From an uncultured Microbacteriaceae bacterium (GTDB lineage Bacteria; Actinomycetota; Actinomycetes; Actinomycetales; Microbacteriaceae), in assembly GCA_903882245.1 (NCBI GenBank), contig CAIRWJ010000254.1, positions 1 to 16,222 on the forward strand: a DNA stretch of 16,222 nucleotides, in the 5' to 3' direction. This document shows, piece by piece, positions 1,086-16,222 of the stretch. Every line of letters begins with the position of its first letter. Position 1 is the first letter of the stretch. The notes under the pieces were generated by a model, which saw nothing but the letters and a program-made list of their open reading frames with translations, searched no databases and was not told the DNA's origin. Made by a program: the position numbers and the translations under genes.

Positions 1086-1831
1086 TTGACAACGTCGGCG
1101 AAATCGTTTATTCGGGTGACCTTGTCCTCGCGCTACCCATCGCGTTCCTCGCGGGGTTGCTCGCGTTTCTCTCGCCGTGCGTCATCCCGCTCGTGCCCGG
1201 CTACATCGCCTACGTCTCGGGTTTTGCTCTCTCCGCCGAGCCGACGCCGGCCGATCGCCGCCGTGCCCTTTTGGGAATTCTCGGCTTTGTTGCGGGGATG
1301 GGACTCGTTTTCATTTCGTTGTCGGTAATGTTCGGGACTCTCGGGCTTCTCTTGATTCCCTATCTCGACATCGTGTTGCGGGTGTCGGGCGTTCTTCTCA
1401 TTCTTTTGGGCATCATCTTCGCCGGAGGGATCCCGGCACTGCAGCGGGATTTCCTTCCACAGTGGAAGACGAGCGCCGGGGTGTGGGGTTCGCCATTCCT
1501 CGGAATCGTCTTCGCCATCGGGTGGGTCCCTTGTGTCGGCCCGACACTCGTCGCGGTGCAAACCCTCGCCGTCGGCGCACACGACCCCGCGCGCGCGGCG
1601 GTTCTGGGCGTCGCTTACTGGCTTGGGCTTGCGTTTCCGTTCGTGGTTGCCGCGCTTCTCCTTGGTCGAATCCTTCCCGCGCTCGCCTGGGTTCGCCGGC
1701 ACATCGAGGCCATCAATGTGGCGGGGGGCTCTCTGCTCGTCATCATTGGGGTGCTGATGGTCGTCGGCATCTGGCGCGAATTCCTATCGTGGGCGGGGGT
1801 GTTCCTGAGTGGCTTCACGTCGACCCTCTGA
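1082..1831 (+). CDS. ccdA: Cytochrome c biogenesis protein CcdA (transmembrane thiol-disulfide carrier)
   Basis: This is a 249-residue polytopic membrane protein of the CcdA/DsbD-beta family. It passes electrons from cytoplasmic thioredoxin to extracytoplasmic thioredoxin-like proteins such as ResA. Both halves of the internal repeat carry the hallmark Pro-Cys: C33 in FLSPCVIPLVPGY and C151 in IGWVPCVGPTL. These cysteines form the redox-active pair across the membrane. About six hydrophobic segments are visible, near residues 14-38, 64-90, 97-116, 137-160, 170-195 and 211-232. The length is typical of stand-alone CcdA. The GTG start at 1082 overlaps the resA stop by 4 bp, so the genes are translationally coupled. 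Its 3' end overlaps the ResB start by 23 bp. No periplasmic DsbD-like domains are fused, as expected when ResA is a separate protein. Confidence 0.95.
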   Translation: MIDNVGEIVYSGDLVLALPIAFLAGLLAFLSPCVIPLVPGYIAYVSGFALSAEPTPADRRRALLGILGFVAGMGLVFISLSVMFGTLGLLLIPYLDIVLRVSGVLLILLGIIFAGGIPALQRDFLPQWKTSAGVWGSPFLGIVFAIGWVPCVGPTLVAVQTLAVGAHDPARAAVLGVAYWLGLAFPFVVAALLLGRILPALAWVRRHIEAINVAGGSLLVIIGVLMVVGIWREFLSWAGVFLSGFTSTL

Positions 1832-3458: not shown

Positions 3459-4333
3459 CGAACAGTCTCGAATCCATTTCCCTCATCGCCACCTACTCCG
3501 CGATGGCGGTTTATACCCTTGCGTTTATCCTATTCACGGTCGACCTCGCCGGTCGCGCCGCGACTGACGGGCAGTCCACACCGACCCGATGGCTTCGCAG
3601 TGCGATGGCGGTTCTTGTCCTTGGATTTGTCATTCACTTCGGCGCGGACGTCACTCGGGCAATTTCAGCCCATCGCGTGCCGTGGGCGAACATGTACGAA
3701 TTCGGTTTGACCGCGACCCTCGTTTTGGTCGGGGTGTTTCTCGGCATCAACCTCTGGCGTGACGTGCGTTTCGTCGGCGCATTCGTGTCCGGGTTCGCAA
3801 TCCTCGCGCTCGGTATCGTCACCGTCAACTTTTACGTTGCCGTGTCACCGTTGCCACCCGCGCTACAGAACTATTGGCTTGTCATCCACGTGTGCGTCGC
3901 TGTTCTCGGCACGGGATTTTTTGCTACGGGAGCAGCGCTCTCGGCGTCGCAACTGTTCCAGCAATCACGTGAAGAGGGCAAACTTCAGACTCGCTCGTGG
4001 CGGTTCCTGTCGGCGTTCCCATCGTCTGAATCCCTCGAGGCGCTGGCCTATCGAATTCTCGTGATCGGATTCGTCTTCTGGACCTTCACGGTCATCGCCG
4101 GCGCAATCTGGGCAGAGCGCGCATGGGGGCGTTACTGGGGCTGGGACACGAAAGAAGTCTGGTCGTTCATTATTTGGACGCTTTTCGCTGGGTATATCCA
4201 TGCCCGTGCAACGCGTGGCTGGCGTGGTCGTCCCGCAGCGATTTTGAGCCTCATTGGTTTCGGCGCGGTGCTGTTCAATTATGGAATCGTCAATATCTTC
4301 TTTAAGGGCTTGCACGTCTATTCGGGGCTCTAA
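3455..4333 (+). CDS. ccsA: Cytochrome c biogenesis protein CcsA (ResC), WWD-domain haem handling protein
   Basis: CcsA is the multi-spanning partner of ResB that carries haem to the outer face and supports its thioether attachment to apocytochrome c. The 292-residue protein has about eight hydrophobic segments. It holds the tryptophan-rich WWD signature WGRYWGWDTKEVWSF (residues 224-238). Candidate haem-ligand histidines are H145 (YWLVIHVCV) and H287 (KGLHVYSGL), which flank the WWD domain. H61 and H249 sit within membrane segments, as in the family. The ATG at 3455 overlaps the ResB stop (ATGA), and a purine-rich AACGGGAGA precedes it. It is the last gene of the operon. Its TAA (4331-4333) overlaps the stop of the convergent menC by 3 bp, leaving no room for a terminator between the two genes. 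Confidence 0.95.
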   Translation: MTNSLESISLIATYSAMAVYTLAFILFTVDLAGRAATDGQSTPTRWLRSAMAVLVLGFVIHFGADVTRAISAHRVPWANMYEFGLTATLVLVGVFLGINLWRDVRFVGAFVSGFAILALGIVTVNFYVAVSPLPPALQNYWLVIHVCVAVLGTGFFATGAALSASQLFQQSREEGKLQTRSWRFLSAFPSSESLEALAYRILVIGFVFWTFTVIAGAIWAERAWGRYWGWDTKEVWSFIIWTLFAGYIHARATRGWRGRPAAILSLIGFGAVLFNYGIVNIFFKGLHVYSGL

Positions 4334-5319
4334 AGCAACGCGAGGCAACGTACTGCCCGGTCGCGCCACCATTGTTCGCGCTCAGGGCTGACCCGCAGTT
4401 CCTCGGCGGTCTTTTCGTCGACAATTCCGGGAGTAGCCGTGAATATGGCGAAATTCGCCGGTTCGGGGGTGATGTCCTGTTCGAAGAGCACGTTCGTCGC
4501 GATTCCGCAGTCATAGTCGAGGTGTTCGATTCGCATCGCCAGGTCGAACGATGCGCCCAGACCGATGGACGATTCCAACGCACTCGAGACGACGACGGGA
4601 AGGCCCGCCTCGTCGATGATGTTTAGTGCGCGCCTTACCCCACCGAGCGGCGCGACCTTGATGACGAGGATGTCCGCTGCCCCGGCACGGGCGACCGCGA
4701 CCGGGTCCGCTGCTTTGCGAACGCTCTCGTCCGCGGCGATCGAAATCCCCAATCCGTGAACTCGAGTGCGAATCTCATAGAGCTCGTCGACGCTCGTGCA
4801 GGGCTGTTCAACGTATTCGATGTCAAACTGCTCGAGGGCACGAATGGCATGTTCCGCCTCATCGACGTTCCAACCACCGTTCGCGTCGATGCGGACTCGC
4901 CCAGCCGCCCCGACGAACTCGCGAGCTGCGCGAACCCGTCCGATGTCATCCGCCAGGACTTGCCCTGGCTCAGCGACCTTCACCTTGACCGTTCGGAAAT
5001 CACCGAACCGTTCCAGAACCAGTGCGACATCGGCCGCGTCAACCGCCGGCAGAGTGGCGTTGGTTCGAACAACGTCACGAAACACGGGCCGCTCCTCGAT
5101 GCTCGGAAGTTGGTTCCAGGCCTGCTCGATAGCGCACGACAACCACGAGGCTGACTCGGCGTCGTCGTATTCGGGGAACGAGGCGAACTCGCCCCATCTG
5201 CCCAATGGCGAAGCGATGAGCATCGTCTCGCGCACGTCGAGACCGCGAAACCGCGTCCGCATCGGAAGCGCCACAACCCTTACGTTGGCGAGCAGCTCGT
5301 CGACGGTGGGAAGCCTCAT
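4330..5319 (-). CDS. menC: o-Succinylbenzoate synthase MenC
   Basis: MenC dehydrates SHCHC to o-succinylbenzoate in menaquinone synthesis; it is a cytoplasmic enolase-superfamily enzyme. The 329-residue protein has the expected residues in order. The KxK motif is K112/K114 in TVKVKVAEPG. The metal ligands are D145 (RIDANGGW), E171 (YVEQPC) and D197 (IAADES). The C-terminal catalytic lysine is K221 (ILVIKVAPLGG). This MenC-type set separates it from a generic dipeptide epimerase, and the menB-menE-menA neighbourhood agrees. It is transcribed away from menB across a 36-bp gap. There is no Shine-Dalgarno sequence before the ATG. Instead TATGTT sits 6 nt upstream, which fits a leaderless transcript. 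A second in-frame ATG at codon 20 is less likely because the N-terminal strand would be lost. The TAG stop overlaps the ccsA stop codon. Confidence 0.94.
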   Translation of the reverse strand: MRLPTVDELLANVRVVALPMRTRFRGLDVRETMLIASPLGRWGEFASFPEYDDAESASWLSCAIEQAWNQLPSIEERPVFRDVVRTNATLPAVDAADVALVLERFGDFRTVKVKVAEPGQVLADDIGRVRAAREFVGAAGRVRIDANGGWNVDEAEHAIRALEQFDIEYVEQPCTSVDELYEIRTRVHGLGISIAADESVRKAADPVAVARAGAADILVIKVAPLGGVRRALNIIDEAGLPVVVSSALESSIGLGASFDLAMRIEHLDYDCGIATNVLFEQDITPEPANFAIFTATPGIVDEKTAEELRVSPEREQWWRDRAVRCLALL

Positions 5320-5355
5320 GACTCAAACATATCCGTGAAGTTATAGCCTGAACAT
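5320..5355. promoter_or_regulatory. Divergent menC/menB promoter region, apparently leaderless in both directions
   Basis: Only 36 bp separate the two divergent start codons. On the plus strand, TAGCCT at 5344-5349 is followed by 6 nt and the menB ATG; an overlapping TATAGC at 5342-5347 is an alternative -10. On the minus strand, TATGTT (5331 down to 5326) is followed by 6 nt and the menC ATG. Neither gene has a Shine-Dalgarno sequence. The heptamer AACATAT occurs twice (5326-5332 and 5351-5357), once near each end. No strong -35 box is visible; ATGACT at 5318-5323 is a weak candidate for menB. Transcription probably begins at or next to each start codon. This is inferred from spacing only. 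Confidence 0.55.
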
Positions 5356-6267
5356 ATGACAAATGCCGTCAGTGACCTCTTTGATTCGACCCAGTGGACT
5401 GTCGTGCCCGGATTCGATGGTCTGACGGACGTGACGTATCACCAGTCCGCCGATCAGAGCATCGCGCGAATCGCGTTCAACCGACCAGAGGTGCGTAACG
5501 CGTTCCGGCCACACACTGTCGATGAGTTGTATCGCGCTCTCGATGATGCACGCCTCAACCCTCGTCTCGGTGTCGTGTTATTGACCGGGAACGGTCCGAG
5601 TTCGAAGGACGGCGGCTGGGCGTTCTGTTCTGGCGGCGACCAGCGAGTTCGCGGCGCGGACGGCTACAAGTACGCCGACGGTGAAACCGCCGACTCGATC
5701 GATTCTGCTCGCGGAGGTCGACTCCACATCCTTGAAGTGCAGCGACTCATTCGGTTCATGCCCAAGGTCGTCATCGCCCTCATTCCGGGTTGGGCCGCTG
5801 GTGGAGGACACTCGCTCCATGTCGTGTGCGACTTGTCGATCGCTAGCCGTGAACACGCCCGCTTCAAACAGACTGATGCGACGGTCGGTTCGTTCGACGC
5901 CGGCTACGGCAGCGCGTATTTCGCTCGCCAGGTCGGTCAAAAGTTTGCGCGCGAAGTGTTCTTCCTCGCGGACGAGTACGACGCCCAGCGGGCTCACGAC
6001 ATCGGTTCGGTGAACGCGGTCGTCGCGCACGGAGAACTCGAATCGACGGGAATCGCGTGGGCGCGCAAGGTCCTCGCCCAGAGTCCCACGGCGATTCGCA
6101 TGCTCAAGTTCGCGTTCAACGCGGTCGATGACGGACTCGTCGGTCAGCAGGTGTTCGCGGGGGAAGCTACCCGCCTCGCCTACGGGACCGCCGAGGCGGT
6201 CGAAGGCCGTGACGCCTTCCTCGAGAAGCGTGACCCCGACTGGGGCGCCTTCCCCTGGCAGATCTGA
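5356..6267 (+). CDS. menB: 1,4-Dihydroxy-2-naphthoyl-CoA synthase MenB
   Basis: MenB closes the second ring of menaquinone by converting o-succinylbenzoyl-CoA to 1,4-dihydroxy-2-naphthoyl-CoA. The 303-residue protein is a crotonase-fold enzyme. Its oxyanion-hole loops are CSGGDQRVRG (91-100) and GWAAGGGHSLH (145-155). The catalytic segment is KQTDATVGSFDAGYGSAYF (171-189), with D181 and Y184. D174 in the QTDA motif marks the type II enzymes (as in M. tuberculosis), in which this Asp carboxylate replaces the bicarbonate cofactor used by E. coli-type enzymes with QTGP. The N-terminus and length match actinobacterial MenB. It is the first gene of menB-menE-menA, 2 bp before menE. The ATG has no Shine-Dalgarno sequence and lies 6 nt after TAGCCT. 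Confidence 0.97.
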   Translation: MTNAVSDLFDSTQWTVVPGFDGLTDVTYHQSADQSIARIAFNRPEVRNAFRPHTVDELYRALDDARLNPRLGVVLLTGNGPSSKDGGWAFCSGGDQRVRGADGYKYADGETADSIDSARGGRLHILEVQRLIRFMPKVVIALIPGWAAGGGHSLHVVCDLSIASREHARFKQTDATVGSFDAGYGSAYFARQVGQKFAREVFFLADEYDAQRAHDIGSVNAVVAHGELESTGIAWARKVLAQSPTAIRMLKFAFNAVDDGLVGQQVFAGEATRLAYGTAEAVEGRDAFLEKRDPDWGAFPWQI

Positions 6268-6269
6268 CC

Positions 6270-7307
6270 GTGACTCTTTCGGATCTCCCCGAACACGAAC
6301 GCGAACCAATTCGAGACGCGTTGACCAACGGCCTCACGGTCGAAACGAGCGGTTCGACAGCGCGACCGAAGCGAGTGCGCTTGTCGGGCTCGGCTCTGGT
6401 CGCCTCGGCCCGAGCCACCGCGGGTGAAATCGGAAAGGGCGGATGGGTTCTCGCCCTTCCGCTCTCGTACATCGCGGGAATCATGGTGGTCGTTCGGTCG
6501 CTCGTCGCCGAAACCCCACTTGTCGATGCCCGCCGCGAGCCGTTCGATGCCCGCGAATTCGCCCGATTGGCGGCCAGCCTGCCGGACGGGACCTGGTTCA
6601 CCGCACTGGTCCCGGCGCAGCTGATTCGACTGGTGGATTTCGCCGAAGGCGACGCCGACGCCCGCGACGCTCTCCGACGCTTTTCTCGAATTCTGGTGGG
6701 TGGTCAAGCCATCCCCAGCGGGCTCATCGACCGTGCAACAGCGATGGGTATTCGCGTGACGAAAACCTACGGGTCAGCCGAGACCGCGGGCGGCGTCGTC
6801 TACGACGGTCGACCCATCGGGGACACGCGCGTTCGTATCGCGGAGGACGGTCGCGTGATCATCGCAACGTCGAGCCTCGCTGACGAGTATCACGGTGATA
6901 TTGAACTGACCGCGACGAGTTTCCGGGTCGACGACGGAACACGGTGGTGGCACACCACCGATGTCGGAGAGTTGACGGACGGCGAACTGGCGATTCTCGG
7001 GCGAATGGACGACATCATCATCACAGGCGGAATCAAGGTTTCGCTCGGAGACATCGACCGTGTACTCGAGTCCGCAGGTGTGGACGCCGTCGCGAGTTGG
7101 TTTGCCGACGAAAAGTGGGGCCAGGTTCCCGCGCTCGTGTCGACGTCTGACCTCGACCGCGATGTCGTGCGCGACCTTATCGAATTGAAGTTATCAAAAG
7201 CAGCCCGCCCGTATCGATTCGTCACGGTACCGGAATTACCGAGATTGTCATCGGGGAAAATCGATCGACGCGGGCTACAGGAACTCGTCGCGAACGTCGA
7301 ATCATAG
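6270..7307 (+). CDS. menE: o-Succinylbenzoate-CoA ligase MenE (short actinobacterial form)
   Basis: MenE activates o-succinylbenzoate with ATP and CoA to give the substrate of MenB. The 345-residue protein is an ANL-superfamily adenylating enzyme. Its motifs in order are the phosphate loop TSGSTARPKRVRLS (26-39), KTYGSAETAGG (165-175), TDVGEL (230-235), the hinge GRMDDIIITGGIKVS (244-258), and SSGKIDRRGL with the adenylation lysine K330. It is about 100 residues shorter than E. coli MenE, mostly before the phosphate loop, which starts at residue 26. This shortness is usual for actinobacterial MenE and not a truncation, since all motifs are present. The GTG start at 6270 follows the menB stop by 2 bp, implying coupled translation. 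A start further downstream would cut into the phosphate loop. Confidence 0.93.
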   Translation: MTLSDLPEHEREPIRDALTNGLTVETSGSTARPKRVRLSGSALVASARATAGEIGKGGWVLALPLSYIAGIMVVVRSLVAETPLVDARREPFDAREFARLAASLPDGTWFTALVPAQLIRLVDFAEGDADARDALRRFSRILVGGQAIPSGLIDRATAMGIRVTKTYGSAETAGGVVYDGRPIGDTRVRIAEDGRVIIATSSLADEYHGDIELTATSFRVDDGTRWWHTTDVGELTDGELAILGRMDDIIITGGIKVSLGDIDRVLESAGVDAVASWFADEKWGQVPALVSTSDLDRDVVRDLIELKLSKAARPYRFVTVPELPRLSSGKIDRRGLQELVANVES

Positions 7308-7316
7308 AATTAGCAC
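7305..7316 (+). promoter_or_regulatory. Candidate leaderless menA promoter (-10 box)
   Basis: TAGAAT at 7305-7310 matches the -10 consensus in five of six positions. It overlaps the menE stop codon, and six nucleotides later comes the menA ATG at 7317. There is no Shine-Dalgarno sequence in the gap. This is the spacing expected when transcription starts at the A of the start codon. A convincing -35 box is not visible. menA may therefore have its own leaderless transcript as well as read-through from menB-menE. Confidence 0.5.
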
Positions 7317-8321
7317 ATGGCAACTCGTAGCTCGAAAAAGAAGCGTCCGTCCGGTAACCGCAGCGGTCGACCCGGAACCGTGAAAATTGTCGCGCACGGC
7401 GCACAAGCTCAGGCGACGGTTCGCCCCGCGAAGTTCGGGGACTGGGTTTCCGCCGCACGACCCTCGACGCTGGGTCTCGGGGTCGCGCCGGTGCTGTTGG
7501 GCTGGGGCGTTGCCATCCTGCAGTTCCTTCTCGACGACATCAACCCGTGGGACGCACTTCCACTCTCGGTCGTCGCACTCTGTTTCGTCGTCGCTCTCGC
7601 CCTGCAAATCGGTGTCAACTTCGCCAACGACTACTCGGACGGCATTCGCGGAACAGATACCCACCGGGTCGGGCCCACCCGGCTCACGGCATCGGGCGCC
7701 GCCCCCGCGAAACACGTCCGCTTCGTCGCCTTCGTCTTCTTTGGAGTTGCTGCCCTCGCTGGGCTTGGTATCACCGTGCTCACGCAGATCTGGTGGCTCC
7801 CCGCCGTCGGTGCTGCCGCCATCGCCGCCGCGTGGTTCTACACCGGCGGAAAAAAGCCCTACGGTTACGCCGGGCTGGGCGAAATCATGGTTTTTATCTT
7901 CTTCGGACTCGTCGCGACCTCGGGTACAGCATTCCTGCTCGTGCAGGCGGTTTGGATTGACAGCATTCTCGCTGGCGTTGCGATGGGGCTGTTCTCGATG
8001 GCGGTTTTACACATCAACAACGTGCGCGACCGTGCCACCGATATCACCGCGGGCAAGCGGACCCTCGCTACCCGGATGCCGCTGTGGCTGGGACGAGCCT
8101 TCTACACGTTCCTACTGCTTGCGCCGTTCGGAATCCTTGTCTATTTCTCGCTGATTCTGATCTCAGCGTTTTGGGGATTCTTTGCCCTGTTCATTGCCGC
8201 GCCTGCACTACTCATCACCTGGACCGCGCAGCACCCCCGCGAATACGTGCTGGTGCTAAAACTGACGGTGTGGACGAGCGTCGCCTACGCGGCATTGCTT
8301 GGTTACGCGTTTGCCTTTTAG
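7317..8321 (+). CDS. menA: 1,4-Dihydroxy-2-naphthoate polyprenyltransferase MenA, with basic N-terminal extension
   Basis: MenA attaches the polyprenyl tail to 1,4-dihydroxy-2-naphthoate in the membrane, giving demethylmenaquinone. The 334-residue protein is a UbiA-family enzyme with about eight to nine hydrophobic segments. The first Asp-rich motif is NFANDYSDGIRGTD (101-114), with D105 and D108 expected to bind Mg-diphosphate. The second is NNVRDRATDITAGKRTLA (234-251). The conserved block FYTGGKKPYGYAGLGE (174-189) is also present. The UbiA core starts near residue 40 (FGDWVSAARPSTLG). Residues 1-36 are a Lys/Arg-rich extension that the M. tuberculosis protein lacks. An internal GTG at 7380 would remove part of it, but the leaderless promoter spacing favours ATG 7317. 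The TAG stop directly abuts the sdaA stop on the other strand. Confidence 0.94.
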   Translation: MATRSSKKKRPSGNRSGRPGTVKIVAHGAQAQATVRPAKFGDWVSAARPSTLGLGVAPVLLGWGVAILQFLLDDINPWDALPLSVVALCFVVALALQIGVNFANDYSDGIRGTDTHRVGPTRLTASGAAPAKHVRFVAFVFFGVAALAGLGITVLTQIWWLPAVGAAAIAAAWFYTGGKKPYGYAGLGEIMVFIFFGLVATSGTAFLLVQAVWIDSILAGVAMGLFSMAVLHINNVRDRATDITAGKRTLATRMPLWLGRAFYTFLLLAPFGILVYFSLILISAFWGFFALFIAAPALLITWTAQHPREYVLVLKLTVWTSVAYAALLGYAFAF

Positions 8322-9692
8322 CTAGCACTCGACAACATTGACGGCGAGACCGCCCGTCGAGGTTTCCTTGTACTTGTTCGACATATCAAGGCCCGTTTGG
8401 CGCATCGTTTCGATCACCGTGTCGAGTGAGATCTTGTGCGAGCCATCACCGGCGAGCGCAAGGCGCACCGAGGCAACCGCCGTTCCCGCCGCAATCGCGT
8501 TGCGCTCGATGCACGGCATCTGAACGAGCCCGCCGACCGGGTCGCAGGTCAATCCGAGGTTGTGTTCCATCGCAATCTCGGCGGCGTTTTCAATTTGACG
8601 TGGAGTTCCACCGAGAACCGCGGCGAGCCCAGCGGCGGCCATGGAACAGGCTGAGCCGACCTCGCCCTGACAACCGGCTTCTGCACCCGAGATGCTCGCG
8701 TTGCGCTTGTACAGCGTTCCGATTGCCCCCGCGGTGAGCAGGTAATCACGCGCGATGCGCTCGCGCGGTACCTTCTTGAACCGCACTGCGAAGTACCCGA
8801 CGGCGGGGATGATGCCCGCTGCGCCGTTGGTGGGGGCCGTGACGACACGCATTCCGGCAGCGTTCTCCTCATTCACGGCAATCGCGAATGCTTGTAGCCA
8901 CTCGTTGCTGAGCGAACCAGGCTCTTCCGCCTCTTCTTGTGATTGGAGGTGTCGTGCAAGACCAGCTGCACGGCGCGTTACATTGAGCGACCCGGGCAGG
9001 GTTCCCTCGTGTTGGAGACCTGCCTCGATGCACGACGACATGGCTGACCAGATGTCGGTGAGGCGTGCGTCCACCACCTCAACGCCATATATCGCGACCG
9101 CATTGGCGTGCGCCATGTCGGCGATGCTCATGCCCGTTGAATCGCACAACTCGATGAGTTCATCGCCGTTGTCGAAGGGGTAGGGCAGTGTCGTGTCGGT
9201 GAGCGGCGCAGGTTGCCCGATTTCGTCATCGGCTTCGACGAAGCCACCGCCGACCGAGAAATAGGTTCGTGAGAATAATTCGTTCCCAACCGAGTCGAGT
9301 GCGTCATATTTCATGGCGTTCGAATGTTGTGGAAGTCGCGTCATAGGACGCAATTCGATGTCGGATTCGCTGAACGGAATCGTTCGACCTCCCACGGTGA
9401 CGACACCCGTCATTACCGCGCGTTCCATCGCAGTGATAACTGATTCGGGGTCGCAGGTCTCTGGGGCGGCACCTTCGAGTCCAGCGATGATGGCGTTTGT
9501 CGTGCCGTGCCCAACACCGGTGGCACCAAGCGACCCAAAGAGCGACACGCGAATCCGCGCGGTCGAATCGAGTTGGCGGGCTTCGACCAGTTCACGGACG
9601 AATCGCCGGGCGGCGCGCATCGGTCCGACGGTGTGCGAACTCGACGGGCCAACGCCGACAGTGAAGAGGTCAAGTGCAGTAAGGATACTCAC
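8322..9692 (-). CDS. sdaA: L-serine ammonia-lyase, iron-sulfur dependent, single chain (type 2 L-serine dehydratase)
   Basis: This enzyme deaminates L-serine to pyruvate and ammonia with a [4Fe-4S] cluster. The 456-residue protein carries beta and alpha domains in one chain. The beta domain includes GVGPSSSHTVGPMRAA (13-28) and LFGSLGATGVGHGT (51-64). The alpha domain includes APTNGAAGIIPAVG (286-299), GCQGEVGSACSMAAAG (340-355) and LTCDPVGGLVQMPCIERNA (381-399). C341, C383 and C394 are the three cluster cysteines. The chain ends in Cys (C456, NVVEC), the residue that in type 2 enzymes folds into the active site as the fourth cluster ligand. The GTG start has no Shine-Dalgarno sequence and lies 6 nt after TAGAAA. 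It is downstream of eat on the same strand but separated from it by a terminator, so it is probably a separate transcript. It may drain serine made from glycine. Confidence 0.96.
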   Translation of the reverse strand: MSILTALDLFTVGVGPSSSHTVGPMRAARRFVRELVEARQLDSTARIRVSLFGSLGATGVGHGTTNAIIAGLEGAAPETCDPESVITAMERAVMTGVVTVGGRTIPFSESDIELRPMTRLPQHSNAMKYDALDSVGNELFSRTYFSVGGGFVEADDEIGQPAPLTDTTLPYPFDNGDELIELCDSTGMSIADMAHANAVAIYGVEVVDARLTDIWSAMSSCIEAGLQHEGTLPGSLNVTRRAAGLARHLQSQEEAEEPGSLSNEWLQAFAIAVNEENAAGMRVVTAPTNGAAGIIPAVGYFAVRFKKVPRERIARDYLLTAGAIGTLYKRNASISGAEAGCQGEVGSACSMAAAGLAAVLGGTPRQIENAAEIAMEHNLGLTCDPVGGLVQMPCIERNAIAAGTAVASVRLALAGDGSHKISLDTVIETMRQTGLDMSNKYKETSTGGLAVNVVEC

Positions 9693-9704
9693 GATGTGTT
9701 TCTA
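9693..9704 (-). promoter_or_regulatory. Candidate leaderless sdaA promoter (-10 box)
   Basis: Read on the minus strand, TAGAAA (9704 down to 9699) is followed by CACATC and then the sdaA GTG start (9692-9690). This TAnnn box with 6-nt spacing resembles the menA arrangement. No Shine-Dalgarno sequence precedes the GTG. The short gap between the eat terminator and this box leaves little room for other control elements, and no good -35 box is seen. Confidence 0.45.
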
Positions 9705-9712
9705 CTAACTAT

Positions 9713-9757
9713 GAGAGAAAAGGCGCCTGTGAGCCGACGAATCGACCCACAGGCGCC
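9713..9757 (-). terminator. Intrinsic terminator after the eat permease gene
   Basis: A perfect 10-bp stem is formed by GGCGCCTGTG (9722-9731) and CACAGGCGCC (9748-9757), with a 16-nt loop. Read on the minus strand, the hairpin begins 8 nt after the eat stop codon and is followed by TTTTCTCTC (9721 down to 9713). A GC-rich stem followed by a U-rich tract is the standard rho-independent form. On the plus strand there is no T-tract, so it should act only on the eat transcript. Confidence 0.88.
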
Positions 9758-9765
9758 CGAGGGTA

Positions 9766-11256
9766 TTACTTGTGTTCGCCGTGAACCGCGTAGCGCTCTT
9801 CAGGAGACATTACGAGGTTGTTGCGACCGATGACAGCGAAGTACAACAAGAACACCGCGTAGACGATGATGATGGCGTAAATCGCGGGAAGGAACGCAGG
9901 GTTCAGCAGGAATCCAACGAACGCCAATGCGGCGATCAACCCGGACACCGTTGCTCCGCCGACGCCCCACGGCGAGCGATATGGACGCTCGAGTTCGGGG
10001 TGCTTGACGCGCAGAATGATGAACGAAATCATCTGCATGAGGTAGGCCAACATGGCGCCCCACACGGCGATGTTCAGGATGATGGCTCCAGCCACACCAC
10101 TGATGGCGCCGGTCGTGTCGGTTGCGGTCAAGTAGTCGAGCAACACAAGTGCAGCGAGACCGATGAGTCCACCAACGAGAAGTGCGAGCCACGGGGTCTT
10201 GTTCTTACCCGTCACGGACAGTCCCTTGAAGTAGTAGCCAGCGCGCGAGAGCGAGTACATGTTGCGACCGTAGGCGAACATGATTCCCTGAAGCGATGCG
10301 AGCAAACCGATCAGCGCGAAGATTCCGAGCACGGCAGCCCAACCATCACCGACGACGGCGCGGAAGCCATCGAGGAGCGGTTCACCCGCCGCACCCGTTG
10401 CCTCAGCACCGAGAATTCCGGTGTTGATGAACATGACGAGAAGACCGGTGACGATAAGGGTTCCACGAGCCCAGAAACCGGCGCGAGGGATGTCCTTCGA
10501 TGGGTTGTGTGCTTCTTCTGCGGCGAGGGGGAGTTCTTCGATTCCGAGGAACAACCAGACGCCGAACGGAATCGCAAAGAGGATGCCCATGATGCCGTGA
10601 GGGAGGAACCAGCTCGAACCAGCCGAACCATCTGCGGGGATGTTCCACAGCATTGCCCAGTCAATCTTGCCCGAGAGGAGGACCATCACCGAGAACAGCA
10701 CGATGATCGCCAGCGAGATGATTGACACAACAATCGAGAACTTGAACGAGATGGCCGAACCGAGCGAGTTGAGTCCGATGAACACGGCGTACAAGACGAC
10801 GTACCAGATCCACATGTTTCCGGTGAGGTCGAGCCCGAGGAGTTCCGAGGTCACACCGTTCGCGTACGCCGCCGAGAAGAACACAACGACCGCGGTCGTC
10901 GCGACGTACTCGACTGTCTCAGCGAGACCCGTGACGAATCCACCCCATGGCCCCATCGCTTTTCGAGCGAATGAGTAAGCACCACCCGAGTGGGGCATTG
11001 CCGACGACATTTCACCGATGGCGAACATGAGTCCGTAGTACATGACCACGAGGATGAGGAAGGCAACGAGCAGGCCACCGAAACCGCCGGCTGCAACACC
11101 GAAGTTCCAACCCGAGAAGTCACCCGAGATAACCGCGGCGATGGCGAGGCCCCAGAGGCCCCAGACGCCGGCAGATCGAGTGAGCTGGCGCTTCTCGAAA
11201 TAATCCTTGCTTTGCTCGGTGTAGGAAACTCCCGAGACTTTTAATTTGTCAGACAT
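9766..11256 (-). CDS. eat: Ethanolamine permease-like APC transporter
   Basis: This 496-residue membrane protein belongs to the amino acid-polyamine-organocation superfamily and most resembles the ethanolamine permease (Eat) branch. It would import ethanolamine or a related amine across the cytoplasmic membrane. About twelve hydrophobic segments are visible. The first, unwound substrate helix carries VISGDFSGWNFG (42-53), the form typical of Eat proteins. Other landmarks are GEMSSAMPHSGGAYSFARKAMG (81-102, given in part), GIEELPLAAEEAHNP (238-252) and FAYGRNMYSLSRAG (327-340). A GGAAAGGA purine stretch lies 12 nt before the ATG, so the start is plausible though its spacing is long. The gene is divergent from the gamma-glutamyl ligase operon across a 254-bp regulatory gap and ends in an intrinsic terminator. 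Another amine or amino-acid substrate cannot be excluded from sequence alone. Confidence 0.87.
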   Translation of the reverse strand: MSDKLKVSGVSYTEQSKDYFEKRQLTRSAGVWGLWGLAIAAVISGDFSGWNFGVAAGGFGGLLVAFLILVVMYYGLMFAIGEMSSAMPHSGGAYSFARKAMGPWGGFVTGLAETVEYVATTAVVVFFSAAYANGVTSELLGLDLTGNMWIWYVVLYAVFIGLNSLGSAISFKFSIVVSIISLAIIVLFSVMVLLSGKIDWAMLWNIPADGSAGSSWFLPHGIMGILFAIPFGVWLFLGIEELPLAAEEAHNPSKDIPRAGFWARGTLIVTGLLVMFINTGILGAEATGAAGEPLLDGFRAVVGDGWAAVLGIFALIGLLASLQGIMFAYGRNMYSLSRAGYYFKGLSVTGKNKTPWLALLVGGLIGLAALVLLDYLTATDTTGAISGVAGAIILNIAVWGAMLAYLMQMISFIILRVKHPELERPYRSPWGVGGATVSGLIAALAFVGFLLNPAFLPAIYAIIIVYAVFLLYFAVIGRNNLVMSPEERYAVHGEHK

Positions 11257-11349
11257 ACGACTTTGTAGTCCTTTCCCGTCGCGGGAACTTTCGCACCCAC
11301 GACATTGTGTTGGCTAGGTAGTTGTGAGCATAGACGAGATAGCACTCGA

Positions 11350-11360
11350 AAATCCAACCT
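11350..11360 (+). repeat. Direct repeat copy 1 of AAATCCAACCT
   Basis: The 11-mer AAATCCAACCT occurs here and again at 11480-11490, exactly 130 bp apart. Both copies are followed shortly by GAGGAAA, after 3 nt here and after 7 nt in the second copy. In the second copy GAGGAAA serves as the Shine-Dalgarno of the ligase gene. The pair could be two binding sites or the remnant of a local duplication. Confidence 0.6.
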
Positions 11361-11375
11361 TTAGAGGAAAAATTA

Positions 11376-11397
11376 TTGTGTTGTTAATACACGACAA
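11376..11397. promoter_or_regulatory. Imperfect palindrome, candidate operator
   Basis: This 22-bp element has half-sites TTGTgtTGT and ACAcgACAA separated by TAAT. Capital letters mark the seven positions in each arm that are mirror images. The GT...AC pattern resembles operators of the FadR branch of GntR regulators, although those usually have a smaller centre. It sits roughly midway between eat and the ligase gene. The match is by eye and the binding protein is unknown. Confidence 0.4.
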
Positions 11398-11440
11398 CGA
11401 TGCCGATGGGTTCGCGTGTCCGCGAAGATTCGCAGGTAAG

Positions 11441-11470
11441 TTGACAAACACCCCTCACCTGGTGTTTTCT
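11441..11470 (+). promoter_or_regulatory. Candidate promoter of the gamma-glutamyl ligase operon with overlapping inverted repeat
   Basis: TTGACA at 11441-11446 matches the -35 consensus exactly. The -10 is unclear; TTTTCT at 11465-11470 (18-bp spacer) is the best-placed but is poor. An inverted repeat fills the spacer: AAACACC (11446-11452) and GGTGTTT (11461-11467) with an 8-nt centre, continuing into TCT. Its place between -35 and -10 would suit a repressor site. As RNA it could also form a weak hairpin followed by U residues. Confidence 0.4.
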
Positions 11471-11510
11471 AAAGGTGACAAATCCAACCTCAACGAAGAG
11501 GAAACACACC

Positions 11511-12878
11511 ATGGCTCAACGCACCGGCATGCTCACTGTCCCCGAATTGCAGAAACTTGTTGACAGTGGTGAAATCGACACGGTCATCATCTCGTTCACC
11601 GACATGCAGGGCCGACTCGTCGGCAAGCGAATGTCGGCGCGCCTATTCGTCGAAGATGCGATTGAACACGGCGCAGAATGCTGCAACTATCTGCTCGCCG
11701 TCGATGTCGAGAACAACACCGTTCCCGGATACGAGTTTTCGTCGTGGGAAAAGGGATACAACGACATGGCGATGATTCCGGACATGTCGACGCTGCGACT
11801 CGCTCCCTGGATTCCGCACACCGCAATGGTGATGGCCGACCTCCAAACGACCGACCACGAGCCTGTGCCGATTGCTCCCCGCTCGTTGCTCAAGGCACAG
11901 ATCGATCGCCTCGCGAAGATGGACCTTGTCCCCTACGTCGGCACCGAGCTCGAATTCATTGTTTTTGACGATTCATTCCGTGACGCGTGGGCAAAGGGAT
12001 ATGACAACCTGCGGCCGTCCACTGACTACAACGTCGACTATGACCTCCTCGCGAGCAACCGAGTTGAGCCGTTGTTGCACGATATTCGCGTGAGCATGGA
12101 CAAGGCGGGAATGTACTGCGAGGGCGTCAAGGGCGAATGCAACTTGGGGCAGCAAGAAATCGCGTTCCGCTACGACACCGCTTTGATCACCTGCGACAAC
12201 CACTCTGTCTATAAGAGCGGCGCCAAGATGATTGCCGATAACCACGGTAAGTCGCTGACCTTCATGGCCAAGTTCAACGAGCGCGAGGGCAACTCGTGCC
12301 ACATCCACATCTCGTTCCGCGACTCGAAAGGCAACGCCGTATTTGCCGACAAGAACGCCGAGAACGGAATGTCGGACATGTTCCGCCACTTCCTCGCCGG
12401 TCAAATTGCACTCATGCGCGAGTTCACCCTGTTGTTCGCTCCCAACATCAACTCGTACAAGCGTTTTGCTTTCGGCTCGTTTGCACCGACCGCCATTGCG
12501 TGGGGACACGACAATCGAACCCTCTCGCTACGGGTTGTCGGTCACGGTCACGGAATGCGCGTCGAGCACCGCGTCCCGGGTGGAGACGTGAACCAGTACC
12601 TCGCTGTCGCCGGACTCATTGCCGCGGGTATCCACGGAATCGAGAACAAGTTGGAGCTCGAAGACCAAACGCGGGGAAACGGCTACGAGGCCGACAAGCC
12701 GCATGTGCCGACCTCACTCCGTGAAGCCGCCGACCTTTTTGAGAACAGCAAGGCTGCCCGGGCGATCTTCGGCGACGACGTTGTCAACCACCTCGTCAAC
12801 GCCGCTCGCATCGAAATTCGCGCGTTCGATAGCGCCATTACCGATTGGGAGCGTGTTCGCGGTTTTGAGCGCCTCTAA
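11511..12878 (+). CDS. Glutamine synthetase-like gamma-glutamyl-amine ligase (GlnA4-type, predicted gamma-glutamylethanolamide synthetase)
   Basis: This is a 455-residue cytoplasmic member of the glutamine synthetase superfamily, predicted to join glutamate to an amine using ATP. Metal and glutamate-site motifs are present: E146/E148 (GTELEFIVF), E209 and E216 (KGECNLGQQEIAF), H264/H266 (GNSCHIHISF), NINSYKRF (312-319), DNRTLSLRV (334-342) and RVEHRVPGGD (350-359). The Glu flap that covers ammonium in true GlnA (YEAP context) is replaced by GSFAP (322-326). The adenylylation context NLYxLPPEE is also missing. Both changes fit an amine ligase rather than nitrogen-assimilating GlnA. AGAGGA 8 nt before ATG 11511 fixes the start; a GTG at 11475 in the same frame has no support. 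The neighbouring Eat permease, gamma-glutamyl hydrolase and dehydrogenases point to ethanolamine, as shown for Streptomyces coelicolor GlnA4. A polyamine or other amino alcohol remains possible. Confidence 0.88.
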   Translation: MAQRTGMLTVPELQKLVDSGEIDTVIISFTDMQGRLVGKRMSARLFVEDAIEHGAECCNYLLAVDVENNTVPGYEFSSWEKGYNDMAMIPDMSTLRLAPWIPHTAMVMADLQTTDHEPVPIAPRSLLKAQIDRLAKMDLVPYVGTELEFIVFDDSFRDAWAKGYDNLRPSTDYNVDYDLLASNRVEPLLHDIRVSMDKAGMYCEGVKGECNLGQQEIAFRYDTALITCDNHSVYKSGAKMIADNHGKSLTFMAKFNEREGNSCHIHISFRDSKGNAVFADKNAENGMSDMFRHFLAGQIALMREFTLLFAPNINSYKRFAFGSFAPTAIAWGHDNRTLSLRVVGHGHGMRVEHRVPGGDVNQYLAVAGLIAAGIHGIENKLELEDQTRGNGYEADKPHVPTSLREAADLFENSKAARAIFGDDVVNHLVNAARIEIRAFDSAITDWERVRGFERL

Positions 12879-13599
12879 TCAACCCGTCATCGGCATCACG
12901 ACATACCGTCAACAAGCGAAGACGGGCGTGTGGGATGTCGATGCGGCGTTCCTGCATTCGGGTTACATCGAAAGCGTGGCGCGTGCGGGTGGCATTGCGG
13001 TCTTGCTGCCCCCGCAGCCCGCCTCGATGGACATCGCGGACCGCGTTCTCGACGGCATTGACGGACTCGTGTTCGCGGGAGGGCGGGATATCAACCCCGA
13101 GCGCTACAGCCAACAACCGGGTCAACACACAGACCAACCTGATCTTCGGCGCGACGACTGGGAGTTCACTCTCGTGAACGCGGCCCTTCGGCGCGAGCTT
13201 CCAGTCCTATTCATTTGTCGAGGCGCGCAGGTCCTCAATGTGTATCGCGGAGGCACGCTCTTCCAGCACCTTCCGGATGTCGTGGGAAAAACCGACTACC
13301 AGCGGGGAGAAGCCCTCCTGACCGAAATGGAGATGACGGTATCACCGGGTTCGACGCTCGAGTCCATCGTCGGATCCTCGGTCACTGGGATGGTCTATCA
13401 CCACCAAGCAATCGATGAAGTTGGCTCGGGCTTGACAGTCACCGCTCGCACCGCGGACGACGTCGTCGAAGCGATCGAGATCGATGATTACCCCTTTGGG
13501 GTCGCAGTCCAGTGGCACCCCGAGGTCACGTCGGAAAAAGATGGACGACTTTTTGACGCGCTCACGTCCGCAGCGCGCACACAGAGGAGCACGGCATGA
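12853..13599 (+). CDS. Gamma-glutamyl-gamma-aminobutyrate hydrolase family protein (PuuD-like)
   Basis: This is a class I glutamine amidotransferase-like hydrolase of about 248 residues. It would cleave a gamma-glutamyl amide and release glutamate plus the carboxylated amine, the last step of gamma-glutamylation pathways. The catalytic triad is visible: C122 in LFICRGAQVLNV (nucleophile), with H222 and E224 in AVQWHPEVTSE. Other family blocks are PVIGITTY near the N-terminus and DGLVFAGGRDINPERY (70-85). The start is uncertain. GTG 12853 overlaps the ligase gene by 26 bp, and TTG 12865 by 14 bp with GGGAG 13 nt upstream; both keep the whole domain. Upstream sequence open in this frame is ligase coding sequence in another frame. 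The gene couples to the aldehyde dehydrogenase by an ATGA overlap. With ethanolamine as the starting amine, its substrate would be gamma-glutamylglycine. That substrate is inferred. Confidence 0.9.
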   Translation: MFAVLSASNQPVIGITTYRQQAKTGVWDVDAAFLHSGYIESVARAGGIAVLLPPQPASMDIADRVLDGIDGLVFAGGRDINPERYSQQPGQHTDQPDLRRDDWEFTLVNAALRRELPVLFICRGAQVLNVYRGGTLFQHLPDVVGKTDYQRGEALLTEMEMTVSPGSTLESIVGSSVTGMVYHHQAIDEVGSGLTVTARTADDVVEAIEIDDYPFGVAVQWHPEVTSEKDGRLFDALTSAARTQRSTA

Positions 13600-14951
13600 G
13601 CTACACGATTATCAATCCCGCCACCGGGAAAGAGATGGAGACTGTCGAACACGCGACAGTAGAAGAGACCGACGATGCGATTGCGCGCGCTGGTCACGCT
13701 CAGAGACAGTGGGCGGCTATGGCGCCAGCCGAGCGCGCAGAGGCACTTCGTTCATTCGCTCGAACAGTCGAAGCCGACATCGAGAATCTCGCTCAAATTG
13801 AGGTTCGTAATTCGGGACACCCTGTCGGACAGGCGCGCTGGGAAGCCACGCACGTTCGCAACGTGCTCGACTATTATTCGGCCGCACCCGAGCGCATGCT
13901 GGGCAAGCAGATTCCCGTTGCCGGCGGAATCGACATCACCTTTAACGAGCCGCTCGGTGTCATCGGAATCATTACCCCGTGGAACTTCCCGATGACAATC
14001 GCGTCATGGGGGTTCGTTCCGGCGCTCGCCGCGGGAAATGCCGTCGTCCTCAAGCCGGCCGAATGGACGCCGCTGTCGAGCCTCCGACTCGCCGAGCTCG
14101 GTCGTGAAGCTGGCTTGCCCGACGGGCTGTTCCAGGTTCTCGCCGGAAAGGGAAGCGTTGTCGGTGAACGGTTCATCACGAACCCGAATGTTCGCAAGAT
14201 CGTATTCACGGGCTCGACCGAGGTGGGCAAGAGCGTCATGCGAGGGGCAGCCGACCAAATCAAACGTGTGACACTCGAACTCGGAGGCAAGAGCGCGAAT
14301 ATCGTTTTTGCGGATGCCGACGTTGACAAGGCCGCAGCGACAGCCCCCTATTCGGTGTTTGAAAACGCCGGCCAGGACTGCTGTGCACGCAGTCGAATCC
14401 TTGTCCAGAAGTCGGTCCTCGATGAATTCATGGAAAAGTTCGAAACCGCGGTCAAGGGCGTCGTCGTCGGCGACCCGACAAAGGATGCGACCGAGGTTGG
14501 TCCACTTGTTCACGCGAAGCACCTCGAATCAGTGAGCGCATACTTAGACAAAGCCGACATCGCCTTCCGTGGAACCGCGCCGGACGGGCCGGGCAACTGG
14601 TTCGCTCCGACCGTTGCGCTGTCCCGCGGACTCGATGACCCGTGCATGACGGACGAGATTTTCGGACCGATTGTCACCGTGCACGCGTTCGAGGACGAGG
14701 CCGACGCGATTGCCATCTCGAACGCGACGGAATTCGGGCTCTCGGGCTCGATTTGGACCCGTGATGTGGGGCGTGCCATCCGCGTTTCTCGTGCGGTCGA
14801 AAGTGGCAATCTCTCGGTCAATTCGCACTCCTCCGTTCGCTACAACACCCCGTTCGGTGGGTTCAAGCAGTCGGGACTCGGCCGCGAACTTGGTCCCGAC
14901 GCGCCACTGCACTTCACGGAAGAAAAAAACGTTTTCATCCCAGCGGACTAA
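13596..14951 (+). CDS. NAD(P)-dependent aldehyde dehydrogenase (PuuC/betaine-aldehyde type)
   Basis: This 451-residue cytoplasmic aldehyde dehydrogenase is predicted to oxidise a gamma-glutamylated aminoaldehyde to the acid. Family residues are all present: N130 in TPWNFP, K153 in VLKPAEWTPL, the Rossmann motif FTGSTEVGK (204-212), general base E228 in LELGGK, and catalytic C262 in NAGQDCCARSR. E354 lies in DEIFGP, and the C-terminal NTPFGGFKQSGLGRELG block (417-433) is intact. The NAGQDC form of the nucleophile motif is common in betaine- and aminobutyraldehyde-type enzymes. At 451 residues it is a little shorter than many relatives (about 480), the difference being at the N-terminus. AGAGGAG lies 6 nt before the ATG, and the ATG overlaps the previous stop (ATGA). 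Its place between the hydrolase and an SDR suggests it acts on the aldehyde the SDR makes. The exact substrate is inferred. Confidence 0.93.
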   Translation: MSYTIINPATGKEMETVEHATVEETDDAIARAGHAQRQWAAMAPAERAEALRSFARTVEADIENLAQIEVRNSGHPVGQARWEATHVRNVLDYYSAAPERMLGKQIPVAGGIDITFNEPLGVIGIITPWNFPMTIASWGFVPALAAGNAVVLKPAEWTPLSSLRLAELGREAGLPDGLFQVLAGKGSVVGERFITNPNVRKIVFTGSTEVGKSVMRGAADQIKRVTLELGGKSANIVFADADVDKAAATAPYSVFENAGQDCCARSRILVQKSVLDEFMEKFETAVKGVVVGDPTKDATEVGPLVHAKHLESVSAYLDKADIAFRGTAPDGPGNWFAPTVALSRGLDDPCMTDEIFGPIVTVHAFEDEADAIAISNATEFGLSGSIWTRDVGRAIRVSRAVESGNLSVNSHSSVRYNTPFGGFKQSGLGRELGPDAPLHFTEEKNVFIPAD

Positions 14952-14970
14952 TCCCCAGAAAGGAACCACC

Positions 14971-15759
14971 ATGTCCATTGAACAAATCGATCTAACCCAA
15001 CGCCTGAAAGGCAAAGTCGCGGTCATCACGGGCGGTGCGAGCGGAATTGGTCTTGCGACCGCGAAGCGCATGCGCGCCGAAGGAGCGACCATCGTCATCG
15101 GTGACATGGACCCAAAATCGGGCACTGCGGCGGCCGAGGAACTCGAGGGCACGTTTATTCAGGTGAACGTGGCGGACGAGGACCAGGTCAACCACCTATT
15201 CGATGAGACGGTTCGTTTGCACGGTCGTGTCGACATCGCGTTCAACAACGCCGGCATCTCGCCGCCCGATGATGACTCGATCGAAACAACCGAACTTCCC
15301 GCGTGGCAAAAGGTTCAAGACGTGAACCTCAAGAGCGTGTATCTGTGCTGTCGCGCGGTACTCCGGCACATGACCAAGCAGGGAAGCGGATCGATCATCA
15401 ACACGGCGTCCTTCGTTGCCGTCTTGGGAAGCGCCACGAGCCAGATTTCGTACACGGCGAGTAAGGGTGGTGTTCTCGCCATGAGTCGCGAACTCGGTGT
15501 GCAGTTTGCGCGTCAGGGAATCCGCGTAAACGCGCTCTGCCCCGGACCGGTCAACACGCCGTTGTTGCAAGAGTTGTTTGCCAAGGACCCCGAGCGTGCT
15601 CAGCGTCGACTCGTCCACATTCCCATCGGGCGCTTCGCTCGGCCGGAAGAACTCGCTGCCGCAGTCGCCTTCCTTGCGAGTGACGACGCGTCGTTCATCA
15701 CCGGATCGACGTTCCTCGTCGATGGCGGAATATCGGGCGCGTACGTCACTCCGGTCTAA
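14971..15759 (+). CDS. Short-chain dehydrogenase/reductase, predicted to oxidise the gamma-glutamyl amino alcohol
   Basis: This 262-residue protein is a classical SDR. It has the nucleotide motif TGGASGIG (20-27), an acidic residue after the second strand (D45 in VIGDMD, suggesting NAD(H)), NNAG (92-95), N119, S147 and the catalytic Y161/K165 in SYTASKGG. CPGPVNTPL (190-198) and the C-terminal VDGGISG are also typical. Annotation by similarity alone would call it a 3-oxoacyl-ACP reductase, but no fatty-acid genes are nearby. In this operon the missing step is conversion of the gamma-glutamylated alcohol to aldehyde, which suits an SDR. AAAGGA lies 6 nt before ATG 14971, fixing the start; the frame is open far upstream only because it runs through the aldehyde dehydrogenase gene. 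The FadR gene follows after 5 bp. The family is certain, the substrate is not. Confidence 0.92.
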   Translation: MSIEQIDLTQRLKGKVAVITGGASGIGLATAKRMRAEGATIVIGDMDPKSGTAAAEELEGTFIQVNVADEDQVNHLFDETVRLHGRVDIAFNNAGISPPDDDSIETTELPAWQKVQDVNLKSVYLCCRAVLRHMTKQGSGSIINTASFVAVLGSATSQISYTASKGGVLAMSRELGVQFARQGIRVNALCPGPVNTPLLQELFAKDPERAQRRLVHIPIGRFARPEELAAAVAFLASDDASFITGSTFLVDGGISGAYVTPV

Positions 15760-15764
15760 CCACC

Positions 15765-16222
15765 ATGGACTTCGACGTCTCGGAGGGTGAGTCTGCAGGG
15801 GCAACGGTCGGCTTCGACCGATCGTTGCTTCTCACACCAATTCGCGGCGGAAACACCTACGAAGAGACGGTCGAACGAATCCTGCAGACGATTCGCCTTG
15901 GCCTGATTCACCCCGGCGAACAACTACCGCCTGAGCGCGAACTCGCCACGATGCTCGAAATCTCCCGCGACACCGTTCGGGACGCAATTGCGTCGTTGTC
16001 GGAAGCGGGATATTTGTCGATTCGGCGCGGACGATACGGCGGCACGTTCGCCGCCGAGACGATTCCCGCTGGCCCCATCGTCATCGGGCGGGACGGTGAC
16101 GTCATTGAACGCCAACACTTCACCGTGTCGGATATTCATGACGTTCTCGTACTGCGGTCCGTACTCGAACCGGGAGCGGCGTATCACGCGGCGATGAGGG
16201 ATCTCACCGGAGAACTCCGGGA
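15765..16222 (+). CDS. GntR-family transcriptional regulator, FadR subfamily, 3' end missing
   Basis: The frame opens at ATG 15765, 5 bp after the SDR stop, and runs off the window after 152 codons. After a short acidic N-terminus comes a winged helix. Recognisable parts are HPGEQLPPERELATML, ISRDTVRDAIASLSEAGYLS and the wing RRGRYGGTF (about residues 48-95). This is the standard GntR pattern with a PxERELA helix and R-x-x-V-R-x-A recognition helix. The segment VLVLRSVLEPGAAYHAA near the end is the start of an FCD effector domain, which places it in the FadR branch. There is no clear Shine-Dalgarno, so translation may depend on coupling to the SDR gene. As the apparent last member of the operon it probably responds to a pathway metabolite and regulates the eat/ligase intergenic region, but no binding data can be read from sequence. 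Confidence 0.9.
   Translation, partial: MDFDVSEGESAGATVGFDRSLLLTPIRGGNTYEETVERILQTIRLGLIHPGEQLPPERELATMLEISRDTVRDAIASLSEAGYLSIRRGRYGGTFAAETIPAGPIVIGRDGDVIERQHFTVSDIHDVLVLRSVLEPGAAYHAAMRDLTGELR

Follow-up and report, generated by a model that had tools for sequence, protein, structure and literature searches.

Does the DNA of an uncultured Microbacteriaceae bacterium hold, in one compact locus, the genes for a route that breaks down ethanolamine through gamma-glutamyl intermediates and without vitamin B12? The question is raised by a stretch of 16,222 nucleotides (contig CAIRWJ010000254.1 of assembly GCA_903882245.1), hereafter called the window, in which a preliminary description had noted an Eat-type permease divergent from genes for a glutamine synthetase (GS)-like ligase, a PuuD-type hydrolase, an aldehyde dehydrogenase (ALDH), a short-chain dehydrogenase/reductase (SDR) and a FadR-type regulator. 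We found the same genes in the same order and orientation, and consider it probable that the locus is a GlnA4-type cluster that breaks down ethanolamine by gamma-glutamylation, without B12. This chemistry, already proposed in the preliminary description, is retained as the best-supported reading because the ligase resembles GlnA4, the ligase never occurs without the SDR in the family genomes sampled, and the neighbours in some lineages include glycine or serine catabolic genes, all steps being predicted from sequence; ethanolamine likewise appears to be the best-supported substrate. The features concerned are as follows.

8322..9692, minus strand: L-serine ammonia-lyase gene, sdaA (TIGR00720, 608.9 bits against a cut-off of 345.1)
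9693..9765, minus strand: gap between eat and sdaA with a terminator-like hairpin (17-bp stem, short T run), from folding against shuffles
9766..11256, minus strand: Eat-type APC permease, putative ethanolamine uptake (TIGR00908 as best NCBIfam match; PF00324/PF13520)
11257..11510, no strand: divergent intergenic control region with TTGACA at about 11441 (sequence and window-clade alignment)
11472..11491, no strand: probable operator for the FadR-type regulator, AAGGT-N10-ACCTC (motif counts)
11511..12878, plus strand: GlnA4-type ligase of 455 aa, putative gamma-glutamylethanolamide synthetase (GlnA4 identity, residues, tree)
12865..13599, plus strand: PuuD-type Peptidase_C26, putative gamma-glutamylglycine hydrolase (PF07722, 209.6 bits; motifs; probable TTG start at 12865)
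13596..14951, plus strand: ALDH, putatively oxidizing the gamma-glutamyl aldehyde to gamma-glutamylglycine (PF00171, 504 bits; ELGGK, GQDC)
14971..15759, plus strand: SDR, putative gamma-glutamylethanolamide dehydrogenase (NF004713; probable ATG start at 14971)
15765..16222, plus strand, cut by the window end: FadR-type (GntR/FCD) regulator, putative EpuRI-like repressor (GntR domain)

In the scheme that we propose, the permease would import ethanolamine and the ligase would join it with glutamate and ATP to form gamma-glutamylethanolamide, whose alcohol group would be oxidized by the SDR to an aldehyde; the ALDH would convert this aldehyde to gamma-glutamylglycine, and the hydrolase would release glutamate and glycine. 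Glycine could then become serine via glycine cleavage and serine hydroxymethyltransferase, and serine could become pyruvate by the product of the neighbouring sdaA gene. As long as no inducer is present, the FadR-type protein would act through a dyad upstream of the ligase to repress that operon, possibly together with the divergent permease. Experiments in Streptomyces coelicolor have established the ligase reaction, in which GlnA4 makes gamma-glutamylethanolamide, along with the inability of a glnA4 mutant to use ethanolamine and the repression of glnA4 by EpuRI (PMC6529630); everything in our scheme beyond those results is a prediction. The preliminary description regarded the later steps as less established than the ligase, and the accessible parts of the literature agree, since they propose these steps for the actinobacterial route and do not show them.

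Ligase and enzymes of the proposed later steps

Over 452 aa, the window ligase has 61% identity with the characterized GlnA4 of S. coelicolor A3(2) (P0164). Among the residues listed in section 12 of PMC6529630, those for metal (6 of 6), glutamate (5 of 5) and ADP (2 of 2) are all kept, 12 of them being distinct, and the flap residue F331, which is non-acidic and takes the place of the ammonium-site glutamate, is also conserved. The D81/D69 of that article correspond to V81/N69 in P0164 and V83/N71 in the window, the numbering there being uncertain. The ligase matches PF00120 with 321 bits, and falls under the cut-offs for GS types I and III (TIGR00653, 221.6 against 429.15 bits; TIGR03105, 227.2 against 469.6) and for gamma-glutamylputrescine synthetase (NF045547, 190.4 against 650); P0164 is likewise far under the cut-offs for these enzymes. 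A tree of 48 sequences split 46 GlnA4-like proteins from two other GS-family proteins of this genome with support of 100/99, in a topology where many deep forks within the GlnA4-like group are unsupported and the outgroup branches are very long. The nearest solved structures are 11zs and 5dm3 (398 and 378 bits, the next having 164); the latter is probably the Chromohalobacter salexigens protein. The ligase protein searches scored the 8000 candidates with most words in common and gave the top 120; because 107 of the 120 relatives listed have 455 aa, ATG at 11511 is the likely start rather than GTG at 11475.

Catalytic motifs were found in the hydrolase (FICRG, HHQA, WHPE), the ALDH (ELGGK, GQDC) and the SDR (YTASK). 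Because the cluster pairs an SDR with an ALDH, and no amine-oxidase family was found among its scanned proteins, an alcohol group on the amine is the likely target of oxidation. The SDR scores 500 bits with NF004713 against a cut-off of 404. This model carries the NCBIfam name 3-oxoacyl-ACP reductase, which may be wrong for this SDR group because 69 of the 70 genomes of the family with a close SDR match also have the ligase. In six loci of relatives (L146, L147, L148, L150, L151, L153), a further gene of the ALDH family lies downstream of the permease, with 30-35% identity to the ALDH of the cluster; in L147 an aspartase/fumarase-family gene comes after it.

For the hydrolase, the family given in the literature and that found here differ. 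The discussion of PMC6529630 puts SCO1615 in the formylglutamate amidohydrolase family, its Figure 2 legend gives orf5 as a glutamine amidotransferase, and Table 2 of PMC9397018 pairs PF05013 with SCO1615. In the L156 cluster, which encodes a ligase with 94% identity to S. coelicolor GlnA4 and has no permease, as is the case in S. coelicolor, the hydrolase adjoining the regulator is a Peptidase_C26 (PF07722, 231 bits), the family of the window hydrolase. It thus looks like the actinobacterial hydrolase is a Peptidase_C26 and not PF05013, SCO1615 being matched by gene position.

Constancy and distribution of the gene set

The window belongs to an assembly of 1.1 Mb in 272 contigs with an estimated completeness of 75%, and covers bases 1-16222 of one contig. 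According to a scan of the genome contigs, its closest named relatives are Microbacteriaceae or actinobacterial metagenome-assembled genomes (MAGs), which, judged from isolate names, seem to be mostly from freshwater. With the preferred starts (11511, 12865 and 14971), neighbouring genes from ligase to regulator overlap by 14 and 4 bp and are then separated by 19 and 5 bp.

We searched 150 Microbacteriaceae genomes for the ligase (E<=1e-100) and the SDR (E<=1e-90), and found them in 69 and 70 genomes, respectively. All 69 ligase genomes have the SDR, and in 67 the two genes lie within 3.7 kb on one contig, so the gene set is not a product of chance; the matches are on different contigs in G022 and G038, and in G090 the SDR alone passed these thresholds. 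A wider sample of 296 class-level genomes gave a ligase match at E<=1e-60 in 151, a count that includes distant paralogs. We also compared named loci, the best 80 of 112 relatives, which come from MAGs and from Microbacteriaceae, mycobacteria, Mumia and Dermabacter. Of these 80 loci, 55 are 21 kb or longer; in them, with presence anywhere in the locus sufficing, we found the SDR (55), PuuD (55), ALDH (54), FadR (48) and the Eat permease (36), and all five in 35; SDR, PuuD and ALDH occur together in 54, with FadR in 48, and with FadR and Eat in 35.

A further 40 loci were hand-picked, so that counts from them are not a survey. They include six distant or second-copy ligases (L162, L167-L171), among which L162 lies 6-7 kb from a gcvP-like and L171 6-7 kb from a glyA-like gene, with no SDR or ALDH matches. 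Across the resulting 120 loci, the best permease match is Eat in 74, another APC family in 23, neither in 21 and weakly Eat in two. The second APC family (e.g., L160:10645-12288) replaces the Eat-type permease in some loci. Two records occur twice (L142 is L006 and L152 is L012), leaving 118 distinct loci.

The B12-dependent Eut route has its substrate in common with the proposed one. The preliminary description noted no EutBC or microcompartment genes in the window, and no Eut or microcompartment family was found among the 16 window proteins scanned with Pfam, a scan that left short open reading frames (ORFs) aside. Beyond the window, the assembly itself gave no EutB match; this absence is weak, because glyA and gcvP, present in 5 of 5 relatives searched, were not found in this 75%-complete assembly either. 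The absence of EutB from all 150 genomes of the family is stronger.

Two loci of small genomes, L160 and L161 (1.4 and 1.3 Mb; G+C of the stretches 48% and 45%), which presumably belong to Nanopelagicaceae, have the ligase, ALDH and SDR with the other APC permease; neither PuuD nor FadR was matched in them. In L160 the SDR has a convergent neighbour, a class-I glutamine amidotransferase not of the PuuD kind (L160:6355-7086), which may replace PuuD. A search limited to one literature collection found no report linking ethanolamine with Planktophila, nor, among the 12 of 77 matches listed, one linking it with freshwater Nanopelagicales.

Regulator and predicted operator

The window regulator is cut by the window end, and we call it FadR-type because its full-length relative (L142:13202-13975, 257 aa) has an FCD domain in addition to the GntR domain; a GntR/FCD protein is also present in the L156 cluster. 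It may be an EpuRI-like repressor. Band shifts have shown binding of EpuRI to the glnA4 promoter (PMC8998196); the main text of that article makes no mention of a binding motif, palindrome or operator, and the accessible parts of PMC6529630 name no glnA4 operator.

In the alignment of the window clade (10 rows, two being the same record), TTGACA, TCTAA-GGT and the leader before the ATG are conserved; a consensus promoter scan gave no hit. The window copy of the dyad sits directly downstream of the conserved TTGACA. The regions upstream of the ligase are conspicuous for inverted repeats whose halves lie a constant 10 bases apart. Among these, AAGGT-N10-ACCTT has exact copies in 14 of the 120 upstream regions (no more than 1 in any of 50 shuffles); if one mismatch is allowed, the number rises to 35 (0.6 on average and at most 3 in shuffles). 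When the motif was recounted on the 118 distinct loci as AWGGT-N10-ACCWT, 36 copies were found in 38.5 kb of upstream sequence (32 loci) versus 13 in the remaining 2175 kb of these loci, which is an approximately 150-fold higher density (counting the duplicate records, 37 versus 13 copies); these counts were made on the same upstream regions on which the motif was picked. It occurs in Streptomyces-type, mycobacterial and Microbacteriaceae loci.

The motif also goes together with the regulator gene. For this comparison we took the loci of 11.5 kb or more, 109 of the 118 distinct ones. Allowing up to one mismatch, 55 of the 86 loci with FadR carry the operator, as do 2 of the 23 that lack FadR (p about 2e-6); when the six distant and second-copy ligases are left out, the latter number becomes 1 of 17 (p about 8e-6). 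Exact copies are found in 30 of 86 versus 1 of 23 (p 0.003). These Fisher p values ignore relatedness and, like the counts above, come from the regions on which the motif was picked. AWGGT-N10-ACCWT upstream of the ligase is a probable operator for the FadR-type regulator.

Glycine and serine genes beside the cluster

The preliminary description was silent on sdaA, which lies 73 bp from the permease gene, downstream and on the same strand. It is beside eat in all seven named window-clade loci reaching that far (L004, L006-L011), it occupies the permease position in L149, and it is also beside the cluster in the family genome G003. Leucobacter species have longer series on the permease strand: eat, gcvP, gcvT, gcvH, glyA and sdaA in L. 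luti (L038), and eat, gcvP, gcvT, gcvH and sdaA in L. celer (L013) and Leucobacter sp. (L024), the domains having been confirmed with Pfam in L013 and L038. In L. soli (L018), gcvP lies 10 kb away, at the margin of the stretch, and among the named loci, gcvP matches near the cluster are confined to these four Leucobacter loci.

Some candidates were discarded during this search. Any glycine or serine query matched in 21 of the 120 loci, and in six of these the matches were only weak GcvT-like ones or such matches beside others; we disregarded the GcvT-like matches of 26-32% (L033, L034, L037, L047, L059, L172) as evidence of glycine cleavage. Families of long ORFs that flank many loci were tried as GcvP; their sequences, read by eye with no profile, suggested an MmpL-like transporter and an AfsR-like regulator. 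We also rejected the idea that glycine cleavage genes generally accompany the cluster, because among the named loci gcvP is near it only in Leucobacter and its linkage in the family is not above chance.

Weighing of the explanations

Several observations weigh against the ethanolamine route with its FadR-type control and its continuation to pyruvate. In the ligase, the substrate-pocket residues V189/D186 of PMC6529630 correspond to L191/D188, and the permease reaches 336.7 bits with the ethanolamine permease model TIGR00908, under the cut-off of 381.75, this still being its best NCBIfam match. The operator is lacking, even at one mismatch, in 31 of the 86 distinct FadR-bearing loci, and the window copy (11472-11491) itself has one mismatch to AWGGT-N10-ACCWT. 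None of the glycine and serine genes was found in the full-length Leucobacter loci L027 and L039. In the family, 68 genomes have both gcvP and the ligase, and in 2 of them the two genes are no more than 20 kb apart, about 0.93 being expected, which is no excess; three of the five genomes with linked sdaA are of the window genus, including the window itself and one with a distance of 18 kb. Glycine-gene linkage is real in some lineages, yet patchy. Finally, the hairpin between eat and sdaA has -34.6 kcal/mol (z -5.7), with 0 of 200 shuffles as stable.

This hairpin bears on the view that sdaA is incidental and serves general serine catabolism, which touches the last step only and is compatible with the ethanolamine route. 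A strong hairpin is in the eat-sdaA gap of the window and of 6 of 6 relatives folded, the T run missing in some, and because it lies between the genes, sdaA need not share the permease transcript; co-transcription as a settled fact was therefore rejected. The incidental view is also favoured by sdaA being within 20 kb of the ligase in just 5 of the 40 family genomes with both; yet about 0.55 would be expected, a number which, like that for gcvP, assumes a 3-Mb genome, too large for the window genus (1.1-1.6 Mb), and sdaA stands beside the cluster in the window clade, Leucobacter and G003. We lean against an incidental sdaA while regarding it as a serious possibility. The same neighbourhood is relevant to the substrate, since the chemistry might act on another amino alcohol, such as serinol (giving serine, and pyruvate by SdaA), alaninol (giving alanine) or 3-aminopropanol (giving beta-alanine). 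An SDR and an ALDH would suit any primary amino alcohol, and with sdaA adjacent and no gcv genes in the window a serine product would also fit; against this, GlnA4, to which the ligase is so similar, is reported to be ethanolamine-specific among the tested compounds (PMC6529630), and gcvPTH, once with glyA, beside the Leucobacter cluster points to glycine. Another substrate of this kind is thus unlikely.

A GS-like ligase, an ALDH and a PuuD-type hydrolase are also parts of the Puu route, by which Escherichia coli degrades putrescine, and the ligase has a weak match to NF045547, so that a gamma-glutamyl polyamine pathway was considered. The ligase fails the cut-off of that model, no PuuB-type oxidase was found among the scanned cluster proteins, where an SDR is present at the amine-oxidizing step instead, and GlnA4, according to PMC6529630, is no gamma-glutamylpolyamine synthetase; we regard a polyamine pathway as very improbable. 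Ethanolamine breakdown by a GlnA4-type cluster is accordingly the reading that we prefer. A more extended version, in which Leucobacter and partly the window clade have an ethanolamine-to-pyruvate locus, ethanolamine serves as a carbon, nitrogen and one-carbon source, the FadR-type repressor acts on AWGGT-N10-ACCWT, and small-genome freshwater actinobacteria have kept the cluster, is more tentative, and we would place it somewhat below an even chance.

Relation to known systems and implications

The preliminary description implied that a complete compact locus would be new, and this could not be upheld: the ligase is common in the family, as counted above, and the genes and steps are in print for Streptomyces. 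The Figure 2 legend of PMC6529630 (2019) gives, for five Streptomyces, an SDR, ALDH, GlnA4, a regulator, a putative ethanolamine transporter and a glutamine amidotransferase, and the discussion of that article puts forward identical later steps ending in glycine and glutamate. The window is therefore a further member of the described kind of cluster (SCO1610-SCO1615), with which it shares the ligase, ALDH, SDR, regulator, putative permease (which S. coelicolor itself lacks), glutamine-amidotransferase-type gene and the four proposed steps, in another gene order. In the six Streptomyces-type loci examined, the regulator, permease (5 of 6) and hydrolase are on one side and ligase-ALDH-SDR on the other, whereas in the window ligase-PuuD-ALDH-SDR-FadR form one unit and the permease alone is divergent, followed by sdaA. 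The operon of Chromohalobacter and Phaeobacter (PMC10132767, PMC9397018) also has a GS-like ligase, an ALDH, an alcohol dehydrogenase and an amidohydrolase acting via gamma-glutamylglycine, with a TRAP transporter in contrast to the APC permease of the window, and, in C. salexigens, an iron-type dehydrogenase (PF00465) and an amidohydrolase of PF05013 in contrast to SDR and Peptidase_C26. According to PMC10132767, a related operon is induced in Phaeobacter on phosphorylethanolamine, and closely related genes have been demonstrated to function in Chromohalobacter and Agrobacterium.

New to us are the way in which the genes are arranged, the predicted operator, the glycine genes nearby and the doubt on the hydrolase family, all of which are predictions. 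The cluster is compact, with a conserved gene order, a predicted operator and, in some relatives, glycine-catabolic neighbours, so that the end product and the regulator are directly testable. Our results put in question the hydrolase family assumed for the actinobacterial route, offer a functional reading for an SDR family named 3-oxoacyl-ACP reductase by NCBI, and give a pointer to ethanolamine use in small-genome, probably freshwater, actinobacteria, for which phosphatidylethanolamine headgroups would, if this is true, be a nutrient.

Other genes of the window

The cluster and sdaA are apparently embedded in a menaquinone locus. To their left (4330-8321) are menC-like enolase-like, menB-like enoyl-CoA hydratase, menE-like AMP-binding and menA-like UbiA genes, and on the right side of the close relative (L142:14617-16299) is a thiamine pyrophosphate (TPP)-enzyme gene, menD-like, these names being read from Pfam. 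Genes for a histidine phosphatase, a redoxin, DsbD-like and ResB-like proteins and cytochrome c assembly at 58-4333 are, according to Pfam, an ordinary cytochrome c maturation group.

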